This document shows, piece after piece, positions 1 to 14,283 of a DNA stretch of 64,000 bases; within the stretch, counting starts at the first letter, position 1; each line of letters starts with the position of its first letter. The position numbers and the translations under genes are program-made. The notes below the pieces were generated by a model. It saw nothing but the letters and a program-made list of their open reading frames with translations, was not told the DNA's origin and did not search any database. Origin of the DNA: Flavobacterium ovatum (GTDB taxonomy: Bacteria > Bacteroidota > Bacteroidia > Flavobacteriales > Flavobacteriaceae); the NCBI RefSeq assembly GCF_040703125.1, contig NZ_CP160035.1:2383001-2447000 (forward strand). The letters run 5' to 3'.

Positions 1-2815
1 AGTTTCCATTAAAATTGTTGATGGCTTGCTGTAACTCTTTGAATGTTTCAATTCCTTTATAATGTTTGTCGTTTATTTCCGAAATAATTGCAACAGCCGT
101 TTTTGTATCTTCAATTTTGTTTGTTGCATCAGAAAAATGAATTTGAATACTTGTGAAAGTTTCTGATTTTTTAAACTCTAGAAACTTGTTTTCATCAATC
201 TCAAATTCGTTTCTTTTTGATTGAATGTTCTCAACTATTTCTTTTTGATTGCTGTATTTTTCTTCTAATTTTTTAATTTCAATTTTATGTTCAGTTTCAA
301 AAGCATTTTGCTTTTTTTCTAAGCTTAATTTATTAGCTTTCAGTTCTGGTATTTTATCAAAAAGTTCTCTTTTATCTTTTTCAAATTCAATAACGATACG
401 TTCGTTAATAGTTATAAAATCTAGCGAATTTGATAGTTCACCTAATCTAACGTCAATTAAATAAAGCCTTTTTGTATCAGCCCCTTTGTCATCTAATTCC
501 GAAGTTTGTTGTTTTTTTAGTTCCAGAATTCTATAGTCACACTCTTTTTTATTTGCTAAAATTGCAGTTGAAATTACTTCAATTTTTGTGTTCTTTATCG
601 TATTTAGATTTGAAATTTCAGTATCTCGTTCTTTTTCTTTTAAAGTGACTTTTCGATCAATTCCTTTTTTAATAATCTTTATTTGCTCTTGTGCTTTAAT
701 TTTTTGAGAGGCTATTTTATCCAATTCACTTTCTAAACTACTTAGAATTATTCCTTTTTCCTTTTGGGATTTTTCAATCCACTCATTCCATTCAATTTTG
801 TTTTTCTTTAGTTTTTCTTCAACTTGAGTAATATTGTATTCATTTTCCGCTATACTATCTTTTAAGTCTTTTATAATTTTCTGAAATTTAGTTTTAAGTT
901 TAAGCAAATTACCATCTTTATCGATGGTGGTTTGCTTAATAGTTTTTTGAATATCCTTAATCTTATTTTGAAGTTCTTCAATTTCAAGATTATAATATTT
1001 TACCGTTTTAATTCTGCTTTTCAAAGCATTTAAATTCAGTTCTACGCCAAAAAAAGTATTCGCATTTTTATCAATTAATTGTGGGTTTAAGTCCGAAATA
1101 AATAAGACGTTGTCTTCATCAATAACTTTTCCAATTGTGTTTTCCCAGTTAGGAATTGTATCGTTTAGCCAACCATAAAGTGACGATTTACTTTGCTTGA
1201 TTTTATTTTGAATGACCTCAATTTCTTTTTCGAATTTTTGATTTTTTTCAATTTCTTTTTCAATGGAAACAGTATGATTTCTTTCGATATCTTTTGTTTC
1301 TAATTCCCATTCTTTTCGAATGTTTTGCGATTTGTTTTTTGAATTTGAAATGATAGAAGTAGCCGTATTCAGTTGACCATTCAGTGTTTCTTTTTCTCCT
1401 TTGCATTTTTCAATTTCTGCAACAAAAAAGCTCTGATGTTTCAGTTCTGATTTTTTGTTCTTAAAACGATTCTCTTCATTTTCTATACTTTTTAATTCAT
1501 TCGAAGCTTTTTCTTGTTCCGCTTTATGATCCCCTTTAATTTGTGAAATCAATAACTGATATCTATCGATTAATGAAGATTTTTCTTCACTAAATGAACT
1601 TTGAATATTATTCTTTTCCGCGTTTTGAGTATTGGTATATTCTTGATGTTGGTTTTGTACCTGAGCTAATAATGCTTCATATTTTTGAGTAATCAATCCG
1701 AATGAAGAGGTGAGAATATTTTTTTCTTCTACTAAGGTTTTTTGTTCATTCGTTAAAGTGCTTTTCTGTGCTACTTTTTCAATTAAATCAGTAATATTTT
1801 GATTGTTGTATTCGGTTTGTTTGTCGCCTGCTTTGGTTAATTCTTTCTTGATATAATCTATCTCTGAAATTATTTTCTGTTCTCTTTTTAAATGAAGGTC
1901 TTGTAAGTTTTCCTTCTTTTTAAAAATTGAAATAAGCGTATTGTTTTCATTCGAAAAGTTGGATAGCAATATAGGTTTATGGCTTTCAATATAAGACACT
2001 CTGGAATTCAAACTTGAAGCTAATTCTTTCTTTTCTCTATTCAAATAATTAAAAATCCTGTATTTTTCAATTACTCTTTCTGCTTGATTACGAACAATTA
2101 TTTGACCTTTTTTGTTTTTGTTAAACCATATTTTAATATCATTAATTTGTGTTTCAAAATCTCGTAAATGACTTTTATGATAGTTTTCAATATCGATTAT
2201 AAATTCGTCTTCATTTAAAGAATTTATAATGGTGTCTTTAATGAATTTAGCCTCTAAATTAGAGTTCAACAATACATTTTGGATGGTTCTAGGGATATTT
2301 TGGTATTGCTTGCTTTCAATTAAAGCATATTTCCTGAATTCAGCATTTAATCCTTTATTATCACCATAAATTATCCTGCGAAAATCTTCATAATTTGAAA
2401 TCAAGGGCGTATAGTGAATTTCTTTTCCAAACGAATTTCTAATCTTTTCCCAATTTTCAAATGCTCGATTATTGTCATCAACAAAACTTTCACTTTTGTA
2501 TTCCGAATCAAAAAATCGAAAAGCAACTTTACCGTTTACTTTGTAAGCTAAAACACAAAATGGTATACTATCTTTTACCACTTCATAGATAATGTAGGAG
2601 TTTTGATACTCAAAATAATAGTCATCAAAACCTTTTTTTTCTCTTGGAATACCCAATTTCGTTTTATTGGCATTGTAAAAAAACAAAATAGCTCGAAGCA
2701 AAGTGCTTTTTCCAACACCTTGTGTACCGATTAAATGGGTGTTTCCGTCTAATTCAATTTCAGCATATTTTATAGATGCGCTGTTGATAAAAACTATTTT
2801 ATTCAGGTATCTCAT
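1..2815 (-). CDS. SMC/MukB-like coiled-coil ATPase of a Wadjet/MksBEF-type system (JetC/MksB-like), 3' end missing
   Basis: The reading frame is open from an ATG at 2815 to the window edge (about 938 codons) and has no stop. Residues 30-38 are a Walker A motif, GTQGVGKST, directly after an N-terminal beta-strand region, as in SMC/MukB/Rad50 ATPases. About 200-540 and 600-930 are Lys/Glu-rich heptad-like coiled coils. Between them is a non-coiled block containing SLYGWL and ENTIGKVIDED, which I read as a hinge. The start overlaps the preceding gene by 17 bp, so translation is probably coupled. In Wadjet systems this subunit extrudes DNA loops and, with a nuclease subunit JetD, removes plasmids. 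The C-terminal ATPase half and any JetD gene would lie left of the window. Another SbcC/MukB-like ATPase cannot be excluded. Confidence 0.7.
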   Translation of the reverse strand, partial: MRYLNKIVFINSASIKYAEIELDGNTHLIGTQGVGKSTLLRAILFFYNANKTKLGIPREKKGFDDYYFEYQNSYIIYEVVKDSIPFCVLAYKVNGKVAFRFFDSEYKSESFVDDNNRAFENWEKIRNSFGKEIHYTPLISNYEDFRRIIYGDNKGLNAEFRKYALIESKQYQNIPRTIQNVLLNSNLEAKFIKDTIINSLNEDEFIIDIENYHKSHLRDFETQINDIKIWFNKNKKGQIIVRNQAERVIEKYRIFNYLNREKKELASSLNSRVSYIESHKPILLSNFSNENNTLISIFKKKENLQDLHLKREQKIISEIDYIKKELTKAGDKQTEYNNQNITDLIEKVAQKSTLTNEQKTLVEEKNILTSSFGLITQKYEALLAQVQNQHQEYTNTQNAEKNNIQSSFSEEKSSLIDRYQLLISQIKGDHKAEQEKASNELKSIENEENRFKNKKSELKHQSFFVAEIEKCKGEKETLNGQLNTATSIISNSKNKSQNIRKEWELETKDIERNHTVSIEKEIEKNQKFEKEIEVIQNKIKQSKSSLYGWLNDTIPNWENTIGKVIDEDNVLFISDLNPQLIDKNANTFFGVELNLNALKSRIKTVKYYNLEIEELQNKIKDIQKTIKQTTIDKDGNLLKLKTKFQKIIKDLKDSIAENEYNITQVEEKLKKNKIEWNEWIEKSQKEKGIILSSLESELDKIASQKIKAQEQIKIIKKGIDRKVTLKEKERDTEISNLNTIKNTKIEVISTAILANKKECDYRILELKKQQTSELDDKGADTKRLYLIDVRLGELSNSLDFITINERIVIEFEKDKRELFDKIPELKANKLSLEKKQNAFETEHKIEIKKLEEKYSNQKEIVENIQSKRNEFEIDENKFLEFKKSETFTSIQIHFSDATNKIEDTKTAVAIISEINDKHYKGIETFKELQQAINNFNGN

Positions 2816-3368
2816 TTTCTATTTCTTCAGGAATATTAATAGTCGTAATGATGTCTTTTAGGTAATTGAAAGAAGTTAAAACTTTGTAGGTTTCAGAAAT
2901 CTCATTTTCTAAAGAGATGAAATTATCCTTTTCTAATTTTTCAATTATTTTTTTAATTCGATCATAGTTCTTTTGCTCTCCACTTATTTTTTTAAGATTT
3001 TCTAATTTCGTCTTTAAATCTGCATTGTTTTTTAATTGGTTTACAATATCCGCAGGGGAAAACCGAAAACCAACATCAAAAGAGGAATCAAAAGTTTTGA
3101 AGAAATCTAGTATATCAATCCAATTAAATGCTTTTTCCAATTTTCTGTCTAAGTCGACATTATTTTCAACACGACTAAAATAAAAATATTCGTTTCCTTG
3201 TTCTAAAATATAATTTATTTGATAAAAATACTCGTGTAAATCTTCAAAGGTATCTTGTTCTTCGAGTACTTTATAAAGCGTTTGAATGTGTTCATTTGGA
3301 CTGTTAGAACAGATAAATTGTCCTCTGCGGAGCACATCAAATATTTCTGAAGTATATTTTGTAATCAT
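2799..3368 (-). CDS. Small accessory subunit of condensin-type system (JetB/MksE-like)
   Basis: This 189-residue soluble protein has no signal peptide and is acidic and helix-rich. I recognise no strong motif. The call rests on size and gene order: a kleisin-like protein of about 400 residues, then a small protein of about 190, then a large SMC-like ATPase, all overlapping or nearly so. This is the JetA-JetB-JetC (MksF-MksE-MksB) arrangement. MukE/JetB proteins are winged-helix subunits that bind the kleisin and the SMC heads. The gene starts 5 bp after the upstream gene ends and overlaps the ATPase gene by 17 bp. Function is inferred from context; a profile search against MukE/DUF4194 would decide. 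Confidence 0.55.
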   Translation of the reverse strand: MITKYTSEIFDVLRRGQFICSNSPNEHIQTLYKVLEEQDTFEDLHEYFYQINYILEQGNEYFYFSRVENNVDLDRKLEKAFNWIDILDFFKTFDSSFDVGFRFSPADIVNQLKNNADLKTKLENLKKISGEQKNYDRIKKIIEKLEKDNFISLENEISETYKVLTSFNYLKDIITTINIPEEIENEIPE

Positions 3369-3373
3369 AAGTA

Positions 3374-4570
3374 TTATTTGGAATATACGATGGCGTATTC
3401 TATATCGTTTGTTTTTTGAAAACCATCTTCAATAACTAATTCTTGTTCGTATTGAGAAATAATTTGGCAAAAAATAGTTACTCGCTCATCAAAATCAACT
3501 TCTTTCTGGAAGTCATAATGAAGAATAAAATTGAACAAATTATCGCTAGTTGCAACAAATTTGTTTCTAATTTCTTCCAAATTAATCATCACTTCACTTT
3601 CAATACTGTTTTCAAGGTATTCATCCGAAATTCTATCGGCAAGAGCGGGTTTGTTTTGTTTTCTGTTTTTATGATTTTTTGCAATTCTTTTAATTGCTTC
3701 AAAAGCTTTTTCGTTTTCTCTGAGAAAATCTAATGATAAGTTTAAAGGTTCAGTTAATCTCGTTTCAAAAATGACTTGATTTTTAGTGGCTATTATTTGC
3801 TTAGTATCTGTTTCTGCTTCAATTGTAAAATGATCTTTTAGATATTTTAGTTTTCGAAGCTTTTCTGAAAATTTCCCTTGATGTTTAATTTGATTTAGAT
3901 AATCAATAATTTGTTTTTCTATTTCAATCAAGTTATGTGAGCATTCTCCTAATTGATGTTTTAACTCAATAATAATCCTGTTTAACTCTTCATCTAATGC
4001 TCTGTTGAAAAACGTAATTTCATCTTCTTTAATCAGTTTTAAAGTATGATCAATAAGGTTTTCAACTACTTTTCTTTTTATATCTAGATTTTCAAGCTTT
4101 AATTGTTTGTTTTTATAATTTGTTTCATTTTTAAAAGTATTCTCGATATTTCGTCTCAAATCCACTACACTTCGAAGTGTAATAATTCCCATTTTTCTGA
4201 AAGTTTTTTTGATAAATCGAAGATAGCTGTACTTTTTGTTATCGTTATTTTCGTTTAAAAAGTAATCAATGTTTTCTCTAATATTTTTGATGTTTTCATC
4301 AATATAAGACAAGTTGATTTCTTCGTTAACATCCAAAATCTGTTCAAAGAATTCTAAAAATTGATCGTCAAGTTCTAAAAGCCCTCCGTTTTCTCTTATA
4401 ACTGATCTTTCTATCAAATACTGAATACGGTTTTCATCATAATCAACTAGCGAAACGGCATCACTGTATTTGTAATCAATAGATTTTCTTTTGCTAAACA
4501 TTTCAGAAATTAGTTTTTCCTCTCTTTTCAAAGCAGAAATTAATTCCTTAATGTCATTGAATGTATTCAT
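3374..4570 (-). CDS. Kleisin-like subunit of condensin-type system (JetA/MksF-like)
   Basis: The protein has 398 residues, is soluble, charged and mostly helical. The first 80 residues (ALKREEKLISEMF, then IQYLIERSVIRENGG) fit a winged-helix dimerisation domain. The middle, about 90-260, is a helical/coiled-coil region, and the C-terminus is again compact. This is the layout of MukF/MksF/JetA kleisins, which bridge the SMC heads. It is the first gene of the operon and lies about 65 bp downstream of a candidate promoter at 4637-4644. Sequence recognition is weak and the assignment depends on the three-gene order. Alternatives are an unrelated helical protein or the first gene of another SMC-like defence operon. 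Confidence 0.55.
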   Translation of the reverse strand: MNTFNDIKELISALKREEKLISEMFSKRKSIDYKYSDAVSLVDYDENRIQYLIERSVIRENGGLLELDDQFLEFFEQILDVNEEINLSYIDENIKNIRENIDYFLNENNDNKKYSYLRFIKKTFRKMGIITLRSVVDLRRNIENTFKNETNYKNKQLKLENLDIKRKVVENLIDHTLKLIKEDEITFFNRALDEELNRIIIELKHQLGECSHNLIEIEKQIIDYLNQIKHQGKFSEKLRKLKYLKDHFTIEAETDTKQIIATKNQVIFETRLTEPLNLSLDFLRENEKAFEAIKRIAKNHKNRKQNKPALADRISDEYLENSIESEVMINLEEIRNKFVATSDNLFNFILHYDFQKEVDFDERVTIFCQIISQYEQELVIEDGFQKTNDIEYAIVYSK

Positions 4571-5809: not shown

Positions 5810-6547
5810 TTATCCCTTGTTTATGCTTTTTTTCTTTCTCATAGATTCTCCATGGAGTTCGATTCGGTGAGATTGATGTATTAGCCTATCCAAAATTGCA
5901 TCAGCTATGGTTTTCTCTCCAATGATGTCATACCAACCTTGCACTGGGATCTGCGATGTTACAATAATAGAACCATTGTTATGCCTGTCTTCAATGATTT
6001 CTAAAAGGGTAATTCGATTGTGACTATCTAATGCCTGGAGTCCAAAATCATCCAAAATAATAACATCTTGCCTTTCAATTTTAGCCAATTCTCGCAGATA
6101 AGAACCATCTGCTTTGGCCATTTTTAATTTAGCGAACAACTTCGAAGTATTAAAATAGCTTACTTTATAGCCTTGTATACAGGCTTGATAACCTAATGCG
6201 GTGCCTAAATAACTTTTGCCCACACCAGTGCTTCCGGTGATTAAAATATTTTCATTTTTTTCTACAAATTCACATTCTGCCAGACGCAGTATGGTGTTTC
6301 GATCCAGATTACGAGTCTGGTCAAAATGGATACTTTCAATATTTGATTTGTAATGGAATCGGGCGTTGGTGATACTGCGAGCAATACGCTGATTGTGCCT
6401 TTCATCCCATTCGGCATCAATAAGCATTGATACAAACTGATCGAGTGTGTAATGGTCTGTTTTTCCGCTTTCAATGGCCGTTTTAAAAGCATTATGCATG
6501 CCATAAAGCTTCATTTGTTTCATTTTTGTTACTGTAGATTCATTCAT
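5810..6547 (-). CDS. istB: IS21-family transposition helper ATPase IstB
   Basis: The protein has 245 residues, the normal length for IstB. An N-terminal helical domain (NESTVTKMKQMKLYGM) is followed by a DnaC-like AAA+ core: Walker A GSTGVGKS at about 104-111, Walker B VIILDDFG at about 163-170, and IIVTSQIP as sensor region. IstB forms an ATP-dependent oligomer that bends target DNA and licenses the IstA transposase. It starts 16 bp after istA ends, so the two are co-transcribed. The gene looks intact. The KKKKSINKG-like basic tail is usual for the family. Confidence 0.96.
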   Translation of the reverse strand: MNESTVTKMKQMKLYGMHNAFKTAIESGKTDHYTLDQFVSMLIDAEWDERHNQRIARSITNARFHYKSNIESIHFDQTRNLDRNTILRLAECEFVEKNENILITGSTGVGKSYLGTALGYQACIQGYKVSYFNTSKLFAKLKMAKADGSYLRELAKIERQDVIILDDFGLQALDSHNRITLLEIIEDRHNNGSIIVTSQIPVQGWYDIIGEKTIADAILDRLIHQSHRIELHGESMRKKKSINKG

Positions 6548-6563
6548 GATTACTTGGTTTTAA

Positions 6564-8111
6564 TTAATTATAATATTGTTTTCCTCTTATGTTACCGTGG
6601 ATAGGGAGTTCTTGCTCGGGTTCTTGCTCAAAATCAATATGGTCTAAGTTGTTTTCTAAGATGTTTTGTATGGTCTTAAAATTGTAAATCTTAAAATCAA
6701 GTGCCCGTTTACAGGCATTTATTAATCGCTGCTTACCAACCTTTTTTTCGAAGTTTAGTATTCCTAAACAACTTTTATAAGCCTGTTCAGGGTGGTTTCT
6801 GCTTTCGATTATTTGCAAAATATATTCTCCAACGGACTCATCAATACTAATAGCCCAATCAATGAAGCGAGCAGCGCTCCACTGGGCTACAAATTGATGC
6901 GTACTGGCTAAATGCTCTGGGATTGTGGTATAAACATACGGTTTGTAATTCCTTTGATGAATGGCTATCCGATTGTATTTGTAATAGATCTCTACCGTTG
7001 ATTTAGTATACAATAGTTTGGCTTTTTTCTTTACATATTGATACGGAACACTGTAATAATTTTTGTCTTGACTTAATTGAACATGCCCATTTTGCATGAT
7101 AGTAGCAAAGGATTGGTATTTGATTTCAAAGCGTTCTTGTGGCAGTGGGCGCAGTTTTTCTTTTTCATCTTCTAAAAATACTTCCAAGCGAGAATATGGG
7201 CGTCCCGTGAGTTTTCGACTATTATGGGTGTCTAATAAATCCCATATCTGCTGATTTAATTCTTCCAGAGAAAAGAATTTGGTTTCTTTTAGATTGACAT
7301 AAATTCTTCTGTATAATATCTTAACAGCCCCTTCAACTAACGACTTATCCCTAGGTTTATAGGCTCTGGCAGGCAAGATTGTAGTTTGATAATGTTCGGC
7401 TAAATCAGCTAAGGTTTCATTAATTGTGGGTTCAAAACGACTGCTTTTTATCACTGCAGATTTTAAGTTATCGGGAACAATTGCCGCTGGAGTGCCTTCG
7501 AAAAAACGCATAGCATTTTCTACAGAAGTGACGAAATCTTCTTTTTGTTGGCTTATAGAAGCTTCAGCATAAGTATATTGACTGGCTCCCAATATGGCTA
7601 CAAAAAATTGTACTTCTTTGATTTCCCCAGTGTCGTTATCAATAATGGAGAGTGTTTTTCCGGCATAATCCACATACATTTTATCACCAGCTTTGTGATT
7701 CATATGCATTACTGGATTGACTCGTTTACTCCATACTTTATAATGATGGGCAAATTGCGAACTCCTGTAACCATCAGGGTTTATGGCAATATATTGTTCC
7801 CACATATGTTGTATGGTAACACCAACTTTTTTTAGTTCACGCTCCATTTTAGGGAAAAAATTATGGAGTGTCTGTAATTTGGGATTAATTGATTCAACAG
7901 TAGTCTGTGAAAACAAAAGTTCTAGTTCAGCATCTGTTTTTTTATCAATTAATTCAAAGCTTAATCCGAGAACTTCAAATAAAGAAATATATTTCTTTAC
8001 CGTATTCCTGGAAAGGGATAAGTAGCTACTTATGAATAACTTACTCTTTCCATCACAATAGAATTTAATTACTTTTCTAATTTTACTCATGTCTGTTATT
8101 TTGTTTGCCAT
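6564..8111 (-). CDS. istA: IS21-family transposase IstA
   Basis: This 515-residue DDE transposase starts with a helix-turn-helix region (FYCDGKSKLFISSYLSLSRN, residues about 18-37). The rve integrase core has candidate catalytic residues in VDYAGKTL (first Asp), VPDNLKSAV (second Asp) and PRDKSLVEGAV (Glu). The C-terminal region ends in ELPIHGNIRGKQYYN. Length and architecture match full-length IstA, and there is no internal stop or frameshift. It lies about 85 bp inside the right terminal repeats. IstA cuts and joins the element ends with IstB. Confidence 0.95.
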   Translation of the reverse strand: MANKITDMSKIRKVIKFYCDGKSKLFISSYLSLSRNTVKKYISLFEVLGLSFELIDKKTDAELELLFSQTTVESINPKLQTLHNFFPKMERELKKVGVTIQHMWEQYIAINPDGYRSSQFAHHYKVWSKRVNPVMHMNHKAGDKMYVDYAGKTLSIIDNDTGEIKEVQFFVAILGASQYTYAEASISQQKEDFVTSVENAMRFFEGTPAAIVPDNLKSAVIKSSRFEPTINETLADLAEHYQTTILPARAYKPRDKSLVEGAVKILYRRIYVNLKETKFFSLEELNQQIWDLLDTHNSRKLTGRPYSRLEVFLEDEKEKLRPLPQERFEIKYQSFATIMQNGHVQLSQDKNYYSVPYQYVKKKAKLLYTKSTVEIYYKYNRIAIHQRNYKPYVYTTIPEHLASTHQFVAQWSAARFIDWAISIDESVGEYILQIIESRNHPEQAYKSCLGILNFEKKVGKQRLINACKRALDFKIYNFKTIQNILENNLDHIDFEQEPEQELPIHGNIRGKQYYN

Positions 8112-8407: not shown

Positions 8408-9481
8408 TTAATTGAAGTTGAAAACGTCAGTACCATTTTTTTGAAATGAGGTACAGATTTCAAAAGCCTTTTGCGATTTTGATTGTGCTGTACCTCCCAA
8501 AATAATAGATTGTAATTTTGCTTCATTGTTCTTATAGCTACGTACATTTTGGTAGTAGCCTGTAACTGCGTTATAAGCTCCAAACAAAGTGCCTTTTGTC
8601 GTTTCCATTTGTTGTGAGTCGCTCGTCATAGCATAGGCAAAGGCATCCTCAACCGTATTTTTAAAAACGGTTGATATTTCGTCCTCATTTCCGTTTTTAA
8701 TATGCTGTAAGGTTTCCTTGTTGGGACATAGTGCTAATTGTATCAATTTTTTAACCTCGTTGTCGTTTACTCTTACTTTTGACCATTCATTAAAAATTCC
8801 CTCTAGTTGATTACTAAATTCGTTTGCTAATCCCATTACTTTATGCGCATTCTCCAAACGTTGTTTTGCTCCCGAAGTATGGCGGATGCGTACCACGTTG
8901 CTCATATTTCGAAGTGAAGCGTTTAGTGTATTTTGGCATACAATTCTAACAGGTGTAAAAGCTGCCGTAATACTTCCGCTACCATCGTGTGAAGTAGTGA
9001 GGAAAATATATTTTTCTGTAACATCATCACCAGTACCCACACGAATATAGTCAGGTAATTTTGCTGTAATAAAAATGCGTTCTCCATTTCCTAAAGCGCC
9101 TGCAGTCTCGTACAAAATTCCATCAGTACCACCTACAATAGCATCAAAGAAACCAAATGCTTCACGATTTTGTACAATATGATACTCTTTACCGACTACA
9201 CCCAAAACAGTATTGGTATCGTTACGGGTAGTAGCAAAATAATTAGGCACTTTTAGTTCATTGTCCCTAATTTCTAAACTGTCAGTAGGATCAATTATGT
9301 TTGATACCTTGGAATAAAGAGGACTTTTTATAACTTCATAGTTAAGTCCTGCGTGGTTAATAGCTTCTGCACTTGTCGGATAGTCTGTTACTATTTGCCC
9401 TAAGCAGTGCCAAGCTTTTTGTTGTACGCTAAAAAATGAATAACGTCCCGTTCTTTCGTTGAAATTTAAATTGTGTGCCAT
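8408..9481 (-). CDS. DUF932 domain-containing plasmid/phage-like protein
   Basis: The protein has 357 residues and matches the DUF932 (phage/plasmid-like, TIGR03299) family: an N-terminal NERTGRYSFFSVQQKAWHCLG, YEVIKSPLYSK, then AFTPVRIVCQNTLNASL in the core and AYNAVTGYYQNVRSY near the end. These proteins occur on plasmids, phages and integrative elements, often with SSB genes as here (45 bp upstream). Their biochemical role is not established. There is no signal peptide or membrane segment. The gene seems intact and ends just before a strong terminator. It supports reading this region as mobile DNA. Confidence 0.88.
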   Translation of the reverse strand: MAHNLNFNERTGRYSFFSVQQKAWHCLGQIVTDYPTSAEAINHAGLNYEVIKSPLYSKVSNIIDPTDSLEIRDNELKVPNYFATTRNDTNTVLGVVGKEYHIVQNREAFGFFDAIVGGTDGILYETAGALGNGERIFITAKLPDYIRVGTGDDVTEKYIFLTTSHDGSGSITAAFTPVRIVCQNTLNASLRNMSNVVRIRHTSGAKQRLENAHKVMGLANEFSNQLEGIFNEWSKVRVNDNEVKKLIQLALCPNKETLQHIKNGNEDEISTVFKNTVEDAFAYAMTSDSQQMETTKGTLFGAYNAVTGYYQNVRSYKNNEAKLQSIILGGTAQSKSQKAFEICTSFQKNGTDVFNFN

Positions 9482-10964: not shown

Positions 10965-11114
10965 ATGGAACAGGAAGACAAGAGCTTGATTGATGGAAAG
11001 ATAGAGGAGTTAAAGTTTGATATTGAGAAGCTAAATGAACAGAAATTCGTAAATTTACTGATTGAAATTATTGTTTCTATTACATTAAATGAATTAAATG
11101 AAAAGAGCGATTAG
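10965..11114 (+). CDS. Small 49-residue protein translationally coupled to the serine recombinase
   Basis: The ATG at 10965 is preceded by AAAGGAGGTAAATA (10951-10964), an almost perfect Shine-Dalgarno sequence at good spacing, which is exceptional in this Bacteroidota window. The product is acidic and helix-rich (starts MEQEDKSLIDGKIEELKF, ends LNELNEKSD), resembling a short coiled coil. It overlaps the recombinase start by 17 bp in another frame, a typical coupling arrangement. I do not recognise a family. It may be a recombinase accessory factor, or a leader ORF that delivers ribosomes to the recombinase gene, which has no ribosome binding site of its own. Confidence 0.6.
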   Translation: MEQEDKSLIDGKIEELKFDIEKLNEQKFVNLLIEIIVSITLNELNEKSD

Positions 11115-12654
11115 ATACTTAAGATTTAGTCAGTTGGGACAAAGTAATGGTTCCATTGAAAGACAGGAGCTTTATACGGATCAATGGTTGAAATTTAACA
11201 ATGTTGAATTAACAGATACTTTTATTGATCGAGGGAGAAGTGCTAAGACATTTGATAGACCAGACTTTATTAAACTTCAAGAGTTTATTAGTAAACATTT
11301 TAAAACTGTGGACTATCTTTTGGTAGATCAAATGGACAGATTTAGTAGGGATGCTGGAGAAGCAATGAGTATGGTAAAGATGCTTCAGCGAAAATACAAT
11401 ATTCAGGTCGTCAGTGTAACCGAAGGAATTACGTTCGACTATGATACTCCAGGAAGTTTTTTCAGAGCGGGATTACAACTATTGCTTGCTGAAGAGGATA
11501 ATATTAACAGGAGTATTAAAATTAGGGGAGGACTCTATACTGCTAGAGCAAAAGAAGGCCGTTACATCGGAATTAAACCACCTTATGGTTATATAAAGTT
11601 TGGCGAAGGAAAGGAACGAAAATTAATTATTGAAGAAACAGAAGCAAAGGTTGTCAAGTTTATGTATGATGCTTATTTACATGATACACCACTTTATATA
11701 ATTAAAGGACAAGTATTTAAATTAGGATTTAAAGCAAGAGGAAATACGGCTGTTGAAAGAGTATTGACTAATCCTGTGTATGCAGGTATGTTGCAGGTTC
11801 AGGGATATAAAGAGTATCCCGGGGGAATTTTTCCAGCTATACACGAAGCTATTATTGATAAAACTACTTGGCAATTGGTGCAAAATAAGATGAAAAAGCC
11901 TGAAAAAGTTAGAGCAATATTAGATGAAAATTTACCACTTCGCGGAATCTTAAAATGTCATTGCGGAAACCTACTCACAGGTGCTCCATCAAGAGGGAAA
12001 TCAGGCAAGTATTTTAATTATTATAAGTGTAAGACTTCAAAGCATAATAATATAAGTGCAATAAAAGCCCATACACAGCTTGCTGAAATATTAGAATTAA
12101 TGAGTCTCCCAGAAAATACTTTGTCTGAAATAAAAAAGTCTTCTAGTGTGGCAATAGAAGAAAATTTAAAATCTAACAAACTGATAATAGAACAAAAGAA
12201 ACTTTTGCTAGAAGAGACTCAAGAAAAGATGTTTTCTGTAGAAGAAAAGTGGATTAAAAATGAGATTTCAAAAGATACTTATGATAGATGGTATGCTACT
12301 TATAGCAGTACTATCCATTCCTGCAAAGATGCAATTGAGCGTTTAAGTAAAGTTGAAACACATGCATTCAAAATTTTACATAAAAAATTACACTTACTCG
12401 GAGATCTAAAATCTATATATGATAATGCAAATATTATCCAAAAAAGGGAATTTGTCAAATTGGTGTTCGACAGCAATTTATACTATCAGGAAGGTGTCTA
12501 TCGAACACCTACCATGATACCGATAATGTCTCGGAATCACCTGTTAATGCAGGAAAAAGGCTTGTTGATTTACCATAAAAAAAGGGATGATTTTCCAATC
12601 ATCCCATCCAGTGGAGTCGCCGAGAATCGAACTCGGGTCCAAACAAGCAATTAA
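11098..12654 (+). CDS. Large serine recombinase (site-specific integrase)
   Basis: The protein has 518 residues. The N-terminal resolvase catalytic domain carries the nucleophile context YLRFSQLGQ (Ser11) and DQMDRFSRD. The recombinase domain (about 150-260) includes KPPYGYI and LTNPVYAGML. Then come a zinc ribbon (LKCHCGNLLTGAPSRG ... YYKCKTS, about 285-318) and a long coiled coil (about 340-440). It should integrate and excise the island by strand exchange between att sites. The start at 11098 overlaps the upstream small ORF. The last 25 or so residues (from DDFPIIPSSG to the end) are encoded antisense to the ssrA terminator and the tmRNA 3' end, so the C-terminus is probably created by the integration junction. 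Confidence 0.93.
   Translation: MKRAIRYLRFSQLGQSNGSIERQELYTDQWLKFNNVELTDTFIDRGRSAKTFDRPDFIKLQEFISKHFKTVDYLLVDQMDRFSRDAGEAMSMVKMLQRKYNIQVVSVTEGITFDYDTPGSFFRAGLQLLLAEEDNINRSIKIRGGLYTARAKEGRYIGIKPPYGYIKFGEGKERKLIIEETEAKVVKFMYDAYLHDTPLYIIKGQVFKLGFKARGNTAVERVLTNPVYAGMLQVQGYKEYPGGIFPAIHEAIIDKTTWQLVQNKMKKPEKVRAILDENLPLRGILKCHCGNLLTGAPSRGKSGKYFNYYKCKTSKHNNISAIKAHTQLAEILELMSLPENTLSEIKKSSSVAIEENLKSNKLIIEQKKLLLEETQEKMFSVEEKWIKNEISKDTYDRWYATYSSTIHSCKDAIERLSKVETHAFKILHKKLHLLGDLKSIYDNANIIQKREFVKLVFDSNLYYQEGVYRTPTMIPIMSRNHLLMQEKGLLIYHKKRDDFPIIPSSGVAENRTRVQTSN
12576..12605 (-). terminator. Rho-independent terminator of ssrA
   Basis: On the minus strand, the stem GGGATGATT / AATCATCCC (9 bp, 4-nt loop, 12584-12605) is followed by seven T residues. 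It begins 6 nt past the tmRNA 3' end. It lies inside the recombinase reading frame on the other strand. Confidence 0.88.
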
Positions 12655-13005
12655 AAGGCTTTCTACAGGCTTATTTCCTGATTAGATTTTCGATAACAAG
12701 CTAGGCCAGAAACAGCCACTTATTACTTATCTTCTTAATTTTGAAATCCACCCGAAGCTCATGGAAATCTAGGTCTATTTTTACGGTTCTCCTGAATAGA
12801 ACGCCACAAACCAAGGCTTTCAAGGAGAATCCAGCTTTCCTATCTGATAGGAACGTGGCGTAATCGTACTATAATTCGGATTATGCAGCTAAAGCGTAGT
12901 TATTTTCGCCGTTTAAAATGGTGAGATCTTATATTAACGAGCAAGGTCTCAATGCTCGGCCTGCTTACTTTTCAATTCGACTTGCTGTCAAAACCAGTCG
13001 ACCCC
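12612..13005 (-). ncRNA. ssrA: Transfer-messenger RNA (tmRNA)
   Basis: The minus strand begins GGGGTCGACTGGTTTTGACAG at 13005 and ends with a T-arm containing GTTCGATTC and the acceptor strand CGACTCCA at 12612. The first seven bases pair with the last acceptor bases (GGGGTCG with CGACTCC, one G-U). The tag frame reads GENNYALAA then stop (12881-12910). With SmpB it rescues stalled ribosomes and tags the peptides for proteolysis, in which ClpC or FtsH of this window may take part. The CCA end is not encoded: after the discriminator A the DNA reads CTGG, so CCA must be added. That may reflect the island junction. A promoter lies at 13032-13060. Confidence 0.96.
12881..12910 (-). CDS. tmRNA proteolysis-tag reading frame
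   Basis: Ten codons, GGC GAA AAT AAC TAC GCT TTA GCT GCA TAA, encode GENNYALAA. The resume codon is GGC. The C-terminal ALAA is the degron recognised by Clp-type proteases in many bacteria, and GE.NYALAA tags are characteristic of Bacteroidota. Confidence 0.93.
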   Translation of the reverse strand, partial: GENNYALAA

Positions 13006-13031
13006 AGTATTTAATCATAAAATTGAGTTTG

Positions 13032-13060
13032 CAAAGATATTCTTTTTGTGCTAACTACAA
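13032..13060 (-). promoter_or_regulatory. Promoter of ssrA
   Basis: The minus strand has TTG (13058-13060), an 18-bp spacer and TATCTTTG (13032-13039), a good Bacteroidota promoter, about 27 bp upstream of the mature tmRNA 5' end. Confidence 0.8.
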
Positions 13061-13089
13061 TTTAGTTATTGTTATTTATTCATCAAAAA

Positions 13090-14283
13090 TCATTCCCCAT
13101 TTCCGTTGTCATCTAGTTTAAAGGGGTAATCACCAAATAAAGCGGCTAGATTACGCACTTTATAAGTCATGCGATTGAACTTGTTAGACAAGGCTATTAT
13201 AGTGACTTTCTCCTCTGGCAATGTAATGTAGGCAGAAGTATTTCCGTGCCACCATCCGTTATGGAAGTAGAAATTTTGTCCAGTCTCCCAGTTAATCATT
13301 CTCATTCCAAGTCCGTAGTTATTTAGACCTTTGCGCTCATTGCTGTAGCCGATAAATGCTTTTTTTAGTAACTCAGGTTTAAAGAAGTCTGGATCATTAC
13401 GTCCCATATCAAATTTCAATAAATCTCTAGGAGTGGAGTAGATATTTTTATCTCCATAAATAGCGTCTAAATAATCCCAATAGTAAAGTGAAAAATTACC
13501 TCTGTATGACGGATTTGCTGTTTGCCTGTCTTTATCATAATCAAATACATAAGTGTCATTCATGCCTAAAGGTTTGAAAATAATCGTTTTCATAGCCTCT
13601 TTATATTTTTGACCAGTAACTTTTTCGATGATTAATGCCAAAATAGCATAATTTGTATTGCAATAACTAAAACGACTGTCAGTTCTAAATTCTAAGTCTA
13701 TTTTTTTAGTAATCAACAAGTTTACAATGTCTTGATTTGTCAAAATCTTATGACGATCCCAAATTTCTTTTTTATCTGTAAAATAGGAATAGTTTCTAAT
13801 TCCACTTCGGTGACTCAATAGATTTTTAATTGTTACATTCGGATAAGGAAATCCTTTTAAAAGAGTAGTGACTTTTTGTTCTAAATCTAACTTATTTTGG
13901 TCAATTAATTTTAAAACTGCTGTAGCCGTCATTACTTTAGAAACTGAGGCAATATGAAGTGAACTAGAACTAGTCATTTCTGTTTTAGTTTTGTTATTCG
14001 CTAAACCTTCATATTTTTCGTAAATAATATGACCGTTTTTTGCCACCAAAAAACCTCCGTTTAAACTATTATGAGGCCAGTTTTTGTTATAAAAATGCTC
14101 AATTGCATTTTTCTTTGAATTGACATATTCATTTGTAAGATTAGGACCTTCTTTTAAAACAAATGTTTTTTTTGATTTATTATCTGATAAATCTTGTTCG
14201 GAATTATTATTTCCTTTACAAGACGTCAAAAGGAATAAGAGCAGTAGTAATTGTAGTATATTTGTATTTTTTATCGAAATCAT
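13090..14283 (-). CDS. Serine hydrolase lipoprotein, beta-lactamase/class C PBP-like
   Basis: This 397-residue exported lipoprotein has an N-terminal hydrophobic stretch followed by the lipobox LTSC. The class C beta-lactamase/D-alanyl-peptidase fold is indicated by SVSK (catalytic SxxK), YCN (YxN) and HNG near the C-terminus. Substrate is unknown; such proteins include esterases, DD-peptidases and D-amino-acid hydrolases. The frame could start 51 bp earlier at 14334, but a TATATTTG promoter at 14303-14310 lies inside that extension. ATG 14283 gives a proper signal peptide. The gene converges on ssrA without a clear terminator between them. Confidence 0.9.
   Translation of the reverse strand: MISIKNTNILQLLLLLFLLTSCKGNNNSEQDLSDNKSKKTFVLKEGPNLTNEYVNSKKNAIEHFYNKNWPHNSLNGGFLVAKNGHIIYEKYEGLANNKTKTEMTSSSSLHIASVSKVMTATAVLKLIDQNKLDLEQKVTTLLKGFPYPNVTIKNLLSHRSGIRNYSYFTDKKEIWDRHKILTNQDIVNLLITKKIDLEFRTDSRFSYCNTNYAILALIIEKVTGQKYKEAMKTIIFKPLGMNDTYVFDYDKDRQTANPSYRGNFSLYYWDYLDAIYGDKNIYSTPRDLLKFDMGRNDPDFFKPELLKKAFIGYSNERKGLNNYGLGMRMINWETGQNFYFHNGWWHGNTSAYITLPEEKVTIIALSNKFNRMTYKVRNLAALFGDYPFKLDDNGNGE

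Follow-up and report, generated by a model that had tools for sequence, protein, structure and literature searches.

The jetABCD-like operon

Wadjet systems of any type encode a kleisin, a KITE subunit, an SMC-like ATPase and a Toprim nuclease in this order, and the Toprim domain carries metal-binding acidic residues. For type I Wadjet (JetABCD; MksBEFG of Corynebacterium glutamicum), reports describe loop extrusion, stalling on a small circle and activation of JetD (PMC10586767, PMC10512200). A gene set sharing this order, with the kleisin and the Toprim fold both being predictions, is located at the left edge of a 64,000-nucleotide stretch of the Flavobacterium ovatum genome (G000:C1:2383001-2447000), hereafter the window. 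All four genes lie on the minus strand. The jetA-like gene (3374..4570) encodes 398 amino acids (aa) and, judging from the open reading frame (ORF) and the predicted fold, a kleisin of the MukF/MksF/JetA kind, and the jetB-like gene (2799..3368) encodes a KITE subunit of 189 aa that belongs to the MksE family of Pfam. The jetC-like gene (1..2815) is open at the left edge of the window; the adjoining sequence further left on the contig (L002) extends its product, an SMC/MukB-like ATPase with a DUF3584 match, from 938 aa to the full 1232 aa (L002:14117-17815). Wholly left of the window follows the jetD-like gene (L002:13257-14117, corresponding to G000:C1:2381257-2382117) for a predicted Toprim nuclease of 286 aa with a DUF7281 domain. 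jetA and jetB are spaced by 5 bases, jetB and jetC overlap by 17 bases, and the start of jetD overlaps the stop of jetC by 1 base. An initial annotation, made from the letters of the window, had claimed three minus-strand genes of 398, 189 and more than 938 codons, which are present with agreeing ORF coordinates. It had also predicted a JetD-like gene to the left, and the gene found there, with its one-base overlap and its predicted Toprim fold of the MksG/JetD/topoisomerase VI kind, bears this out. On sequence grounds, the four-gene set is a remote relative of Wadjet, recognizable via its ATPase, KITE subunit and nuclease.

The operon is more than a chance arrangement, as the same four genes are found in the same order and on one strand in 69 other distinct contigs. 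These were obtained by scanning contigs of one genome per species with the JetA alignment, which gave 103 encoding stretches, 80 of which were kept and combined with three same-genus loci and seven loci of a plasmid collection into a survey of 90 rows. As the survey was seeded with relatives of the JetA proteins of JetD-bearing loci, nuclease-less forms may be under-sampled in it. The complete order is present in 70 rows, i.e., 69 distinct contigs (L107 is the contig of L044). Among the other 20 rows, 11 are truncated by the end of the contig, five end less than 600 bases past the last gene, L053 has a split JetA, and three (L133, L134, and L135) have a complete A-B-C set with more than 4.7 kb beyond it and no D. 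jetB and jetC overlap in 69 and jetC and jetD in 54 of the 70 complete rows, and a gap of more than 200 bases between two operon genes occurs in four of them. No conserved fifth gene was seen next to 69 operons, where the commonest Pfam family was found in 3 of 124 adjacent proteins (25 of 146 Pfam and 25 of 373 PADLOC families being listed). GajB-, AbiEii- and methylase-like genes lie near a few operons, a count made with no enrichment control.

Several loci carry other genes inside the operon. In two Bacteroidia contigs eight to ten ORFs, several common to both, are inserted between jetB and jetC (L040:3744-12053 and L041:11905-19756); this cargo presumably includes RhuM-like, nucleotidyltransferase-like and tetratricopeptide repeat proteins. 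A two-gene insert is located between jetA and jetB in L048 (11254-13349) and another between jetB and jetC in L049 (11947-13841), the latter of which we take to resemble a HicB/GNAT toxin-antitoxin pair. In L039, jetA is separated from jetB by an IS66-like set (11386-13615).

The four subunits and their closest known relatives

JetB matches MksE of Pfam with an E-value of 1.8e-44 (152.4 bits vs a cut-off of 27), in agreement with its earlier assignment as JetB, whereas it stays under the cut-off of DUF4194, the type I JetB family (10.8 bits vs 32.7). JetC matches DUF3584 (1e-50, 172.8 bits). Two of its features pointed out in the initial annotation, the Walker A motif GTQGVGKST (residues 30-38) and the block SLYGWL...ENTIGKVIDED (about 545-567), are conserved in the family alignment of 29 rows. 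The block belongs to a short conserved region (about 545-603) that sits where a hinge is expected, and a signature-like motif as well as a Walker B motif with DE are also kept. An SbcC/RecN-type ATPase, to which the same annotation had drawn attention as the alternative for the C-terminus, is ruled out for JetC by the absence of SbcC_Walker_B from the Pfam matches at E up to 1 and by the lack of a CXXC motif in all 29 rows. JetC of this family is also longer (1214-1237 aa) than that of the type I loci used (1132-1171 aa).

JetA was assigned via its predicted structure. No Pfam family was over the cut-off for the JetA of the window, and type I JetA is DUF3375, which this JetA is not. The AlphaFold2 model has a pLDDT of 76.6 and a pTM of 0.41, and the Foldseek matches below 0.001 comprise three MukBEF or MukEF entries and one entry of Escherichia coli JetABCD, with the MukF chains coming first. 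JetA is therefore predicted to be a kleisin of the MukF/MksF/JetA kind, which fits its earlier naming. Sequence methods leave this kleisin unconnected to Wadjet. The family is large, with JetA relatives forming 1321 protein clusters at E 1e-3.

Similarly, JetD is predicted to be a Toprim nuclease with a short winged-helix front, as its AlphaFold2 model (pLDDT 88.6) matches structures of MksG/JetD and of topoisomerase VI-A. DUF7281 is the sole Pfam family over the cut-off (3.6e-11, 43.4 bits vs 27). The expectation of a JetD-like gene was therefore right, but not that of DUF3322/DUF2220, and the protein is about 100 aa shorter than the aligned type I JetD. Type I JetD has a DUF3322 front and a DUF2220 (JetD_C) end and comprises 380-403 aa in the loci used, in contrast to 278-302 aa in this family. 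PF09983, the Pfam entry named JetD_C, stands beside DUF7281 in 2 of 120 listed JetD relatives. In total, relatives of JetD form 1764 protein clusters at E 1e-3. The residues E152, D202, D204, and E278, the acidic residues of the predicted Toprim domain, are invariant in 32 of 32 rows. In MksG, exchanges E236A and D279A drastically impaired the nuclease activity, and E349 and E351 match proposed nucleophiles of JetD, as stated in the account of that protein (PMC10123090). The C-terminal motif of the JetD rows is mostly GLDQE or GLEQE, and E278, placed by motif only, may stand opposite the last of the E349/E351-type residues. Different from topoisomerase VI-A and Spo11, no tyrosine is found in the first predicted helix of JetD (residues 5-15), which we take to be the place of their catalytic motif. 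A tyrosine just past the predicted winged helix, Y73, is invariant in all 32 rows.

Compared with the Jet models of PADLOC, the one defence library tested, the four-gene set is matched at best weakly. JetA, JetB and JetC of the window have no match at E up to 1, and its JetD has two weak JetD1 matches (5.9e-5 and 0.0011). Across the families, none of the 34 JetA members is matched, three JetB1 models match 2, 1 and 1 of 29 JetB members (best 5.1e-4), one JetC1 model matches 28 of 29 JetC members (best 3.1e-9), and two JetD1 models match 31 (best 1.1e-6) and 26 (best 1.2e-9) of 32 JetD members, nine of which are matched by a JetD3 model. JetA, JetB and JetC matched no type II or III model of PADLOC, a library in which JetD2 and JetD3 are the models known to represent these types. 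A type I operon from the same phylum (L121), located via DUF3375, served as the positive control and reached 448.7, 214.5, 1213.5, and 405.3 bits with the best type I models for A to D.

Direct comparison by hhalign with type I alignments from Bacteroidota (ten loci, giving 8, 9, 9, and 7 rows for A, B, C, and D, the remaining genes being truncated, absent or unused) gave probabilities of 0.1% for JetA (P 0.42, chance level), 11% for JetB, 30% over 72 columns for JetC and 29% for JetD. In the latter, E152-N153 is aligned with E253-N254 and D202/D204 with D297/D299. Given the scores of the control and these probabilities, an ordinary type I Wadjet is unsupported. A sequence search of solved structures yielded no match for JetA and JetD, coiled-coil matches without meaning for JetC, and just coiled coils and a PsaD stretch for JetB. 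In a comparison of structures, the Z with type II Wadjet (Neobacillus vireti JetABC, 9qe1) was not set apart from that with unrelated helical proteins. The set shares an MksE-family KITE subunit with MukBEF of E. coli and MksBEF, and MukF is the first Foldseek match of JetA, but it differs from both by the trailing nuclease gene and from MukB by the length of the ATPase (1232 aa vs 1486 aa). None of the four proteins matched the Pfam families MukF, MukE or MukB.

Proposed function and alternative explanations

The sequences themselves show the order and translational overlap of the genes, their conservation and patchy spread, the ATPase motifs and the invariant acidic residues of the Toprim domain; the folds of JetA and JetD are predictions. 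We consider it probable that the four genes work together in plasmid defence and represent one more Wadjet/MksBEFG type, so far unclassified. On the model of type I Wadjet, JetA and JetB would close JetC dimers into a motor that extrudes DNA loops. On a small circle, this motor would have no more DNA to reel in and come to a halt, which would turn on JetD, so that the plasmid would be cut and the cell protected. In the open-licence papers of PubMed Central (PMC) that were searched, the term DUF7281 was not found, nothing about Wadjet was apparent for DUF3584, and a search for a further Wadjet type turned up only work on obstacle bypass. The named entries among the 120 listed relatives each of nuclease and kleisin are hypothetical, uncharacterized or DUF7281 proteins.

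The main rival of plasmid defence is a mainly chromosome-organizing condensin of the MukBEF/MksBEF kind in a lineage without Smc-ScpAB, with the Toprim protein being a topoisomerase-like helper, and it remains so because the own genome of the operon shows no Smc over the cut-off and no ScpA. Its seven matches to the Smc model are all far under the cut-off (best 24.8 bits vs 567), and one 1244-aa protein found with SMC_N bears an SbcC-like CAVCG hook. The order to which F. ovatum belongs may lack Smc-ScpAB, but the Smc and SMC_N models do not list JetC either, so that divergent SMC proteins can escape them, and the SMC_N figures refer to the matches listed. Moreover, JetB scores 152 bits with the MksE model and type I JetB 75 bits, which puts the former nearer to the MukE/MksE profile (E. 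coli MukE reaches 173 bits), and three loci keep A-B-C without D. A chromosomal role is nevertheless rather unlikely, since the JetA profile is unmatched in 294 of 299 genomes of the genus and 69 of 72 distinct complete loci include the nuclease gene, the split-JetA locus L053 set aside. As a separate observation, the best SMC_N matches of 21 genomes including the own one, among those listed, lie in frames of about 360-570 aa, which are RecF/RecN sizes.

The weak matches of JetC and JetD to type I models, and of JetD to JetD3, could also mean that the set falls within one of the Wadjet types I, II and III as a divergent form and was missed through narrow models. We give this a small but real chance, as none of the 34 JetA members is matched by any Jet model and JetA stays at chance level against type I JetA, while the type I operon of the same phylum is recognized by its models with high scores; types II and III were not directly compared. 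A different kind of defence, in which an SMC-like sensor and a Toprim effector act against phages as in Lamassu- or Gabija-like systems, seems improbable. Toprim effectors occur in Gabija too, according to a report on that system (PMC13040014), and AriA is matched by 5 of 29 JetC members and LmuB by one. However, these matches are weak (best 1.8e-5 and 3.1e-4, respectively), and the MksE-family KITE subunit, the predicted kleisin and the gene order fit MksBEFG/Wadjet. Carriage by viruses found no support: none of the 47 pattern matches that the JetD alignment yielded in viral contigs was a relative, and JetA had no match in a phage collection.

Going beyond unclassified plasmid defence, we tentatively propose a fourth Wadjet type, which might well turn out otherwise: a lineage of MukBEF-like condensins, centred on Bacteroidota, that acquired its own small topoisomerase-VI-like nuclease and spreads horizontally, and whose nuclease was lost or never gained in some hosts, leaving a bare condensin. 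If so, it would show how chromosome organizer and plasmid killer pass into one another, and the cells of Smc-less hosts may have no other Smc-type or Muk-type condensin. With the loci that have A-B-C but lack D, nature provides a way to compare condensin use with defence use. If plasmid cutting holds true, the operon could help to explain the poor transformability of some Bacteroidota, and a compact nuclease with a MukF-like motor would be available for probing how loop extrusion is coupled to cutting.

Spread and genomic setting

The operon is rare. Matches to the JetA profile occur in 5 of the 299 genus genomes and 1 of the 296 phylum genomes, the own genome being included in both, and DUF7281 in 1 of 296 phylum genomes. 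Apart from the own genome, a wider JetA profile recovered across the phylum a single 905-aa frame, with a score at chance level (18.6 bits). DUF3375, the type I kleisin, is over the cut-off in 40 of the 296 genomes, 31 of them from one genus. In the plasmid collection, JetA is present in eight records and JetD in four. A quick tree of JetA, JetB and JetC with 74 rows and a midpoint root, from which L107 (contig of L044) and L105 (contig of L004) were left out, places the operon of the window beside that of Flavobacterium xanthum (L004), and the same-genus loci L044, L106, and L108 in three other places; L004 and L044 are assigned to the genus via contigs that agree in length and gene coordinates. 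This occurrence of one genus in four places of the tree, together with the rarity, suggests that the operon spreads horizontally. Bins labelled as Nitrospirota, Ignavibacteriota and Fibrobacterota fall among Bacteroidota; those of Nitrospirota and Ignavibacteriota (L036 and L042) are near-identical, and mis-binning is possible.

Among the nuclease-less loci, L133 is sister to the nuclease-bearing L137, and L134 and L135 are on the longest branch, with both joins flagged by the tree tool as long-branch joins. Because of these joins and the midpoint root, gain and loss of the nuclease are indistinguishable. L134 and L135 are Persicobacter plasmids with jetA-jetB-jetC. The Parabacteroides distasonis record L133 carries rplU and rpmA and may be a piece of chromosome, so that a true plasmid is doubtful.

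The initial annotation had placed the genes in a mobile island with a serine recombinase and insertion sequences. The right edge of the variable region could be located at the 3' end of a tmRNA gene (12611..13005, minus strand, found with ARAGORN), which supports an island on that side only. To the right of the tmRNA gene the neighbourhood is matched in 38 of 40 genomes, the own one included. In four relatives compared, similarity begins at 12610-12611, and about 12 kb leftward are unmatched. As each of the four has different DNA there, the 3' end of the tmRNA gene (12611) has the look of a hot spot for integration in this genus. On the left side, four relatives match an oxidoreductase operon, presumably for molybdopterin-oxidoreductase and Rieske-like proteins, up to L002:12784-12798 and not further; this is at most a candidate for the left edge, because in the relatives that operon lies away from the tmRNA gene.

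The mobile elements named earlier were both recovered. Upstream of jetA lies an IS21-type insertion sequence on the minus strand (istB 5810-6547 and istA 6564-8111), the products of which match IS5376 IstB and IstA structures with 1.5e-31 and 3.6e-14. The serine recombinase gene (11098..12654, plus strand; Resolvase 3.4e-19, Recombinase 4.7e-10 in Pfam) has its 3' end inside the tmRNA gene, and its product may be what moves the region. A DUF932 gene (8408-9481, Pfam 1.2e-69), a kind of gene often borne by phages or plasmids, lies between the recombinase gene and the IS21 pair, and a histidine-kinase-like fragment is also located between jetA and the tmRNA gene.

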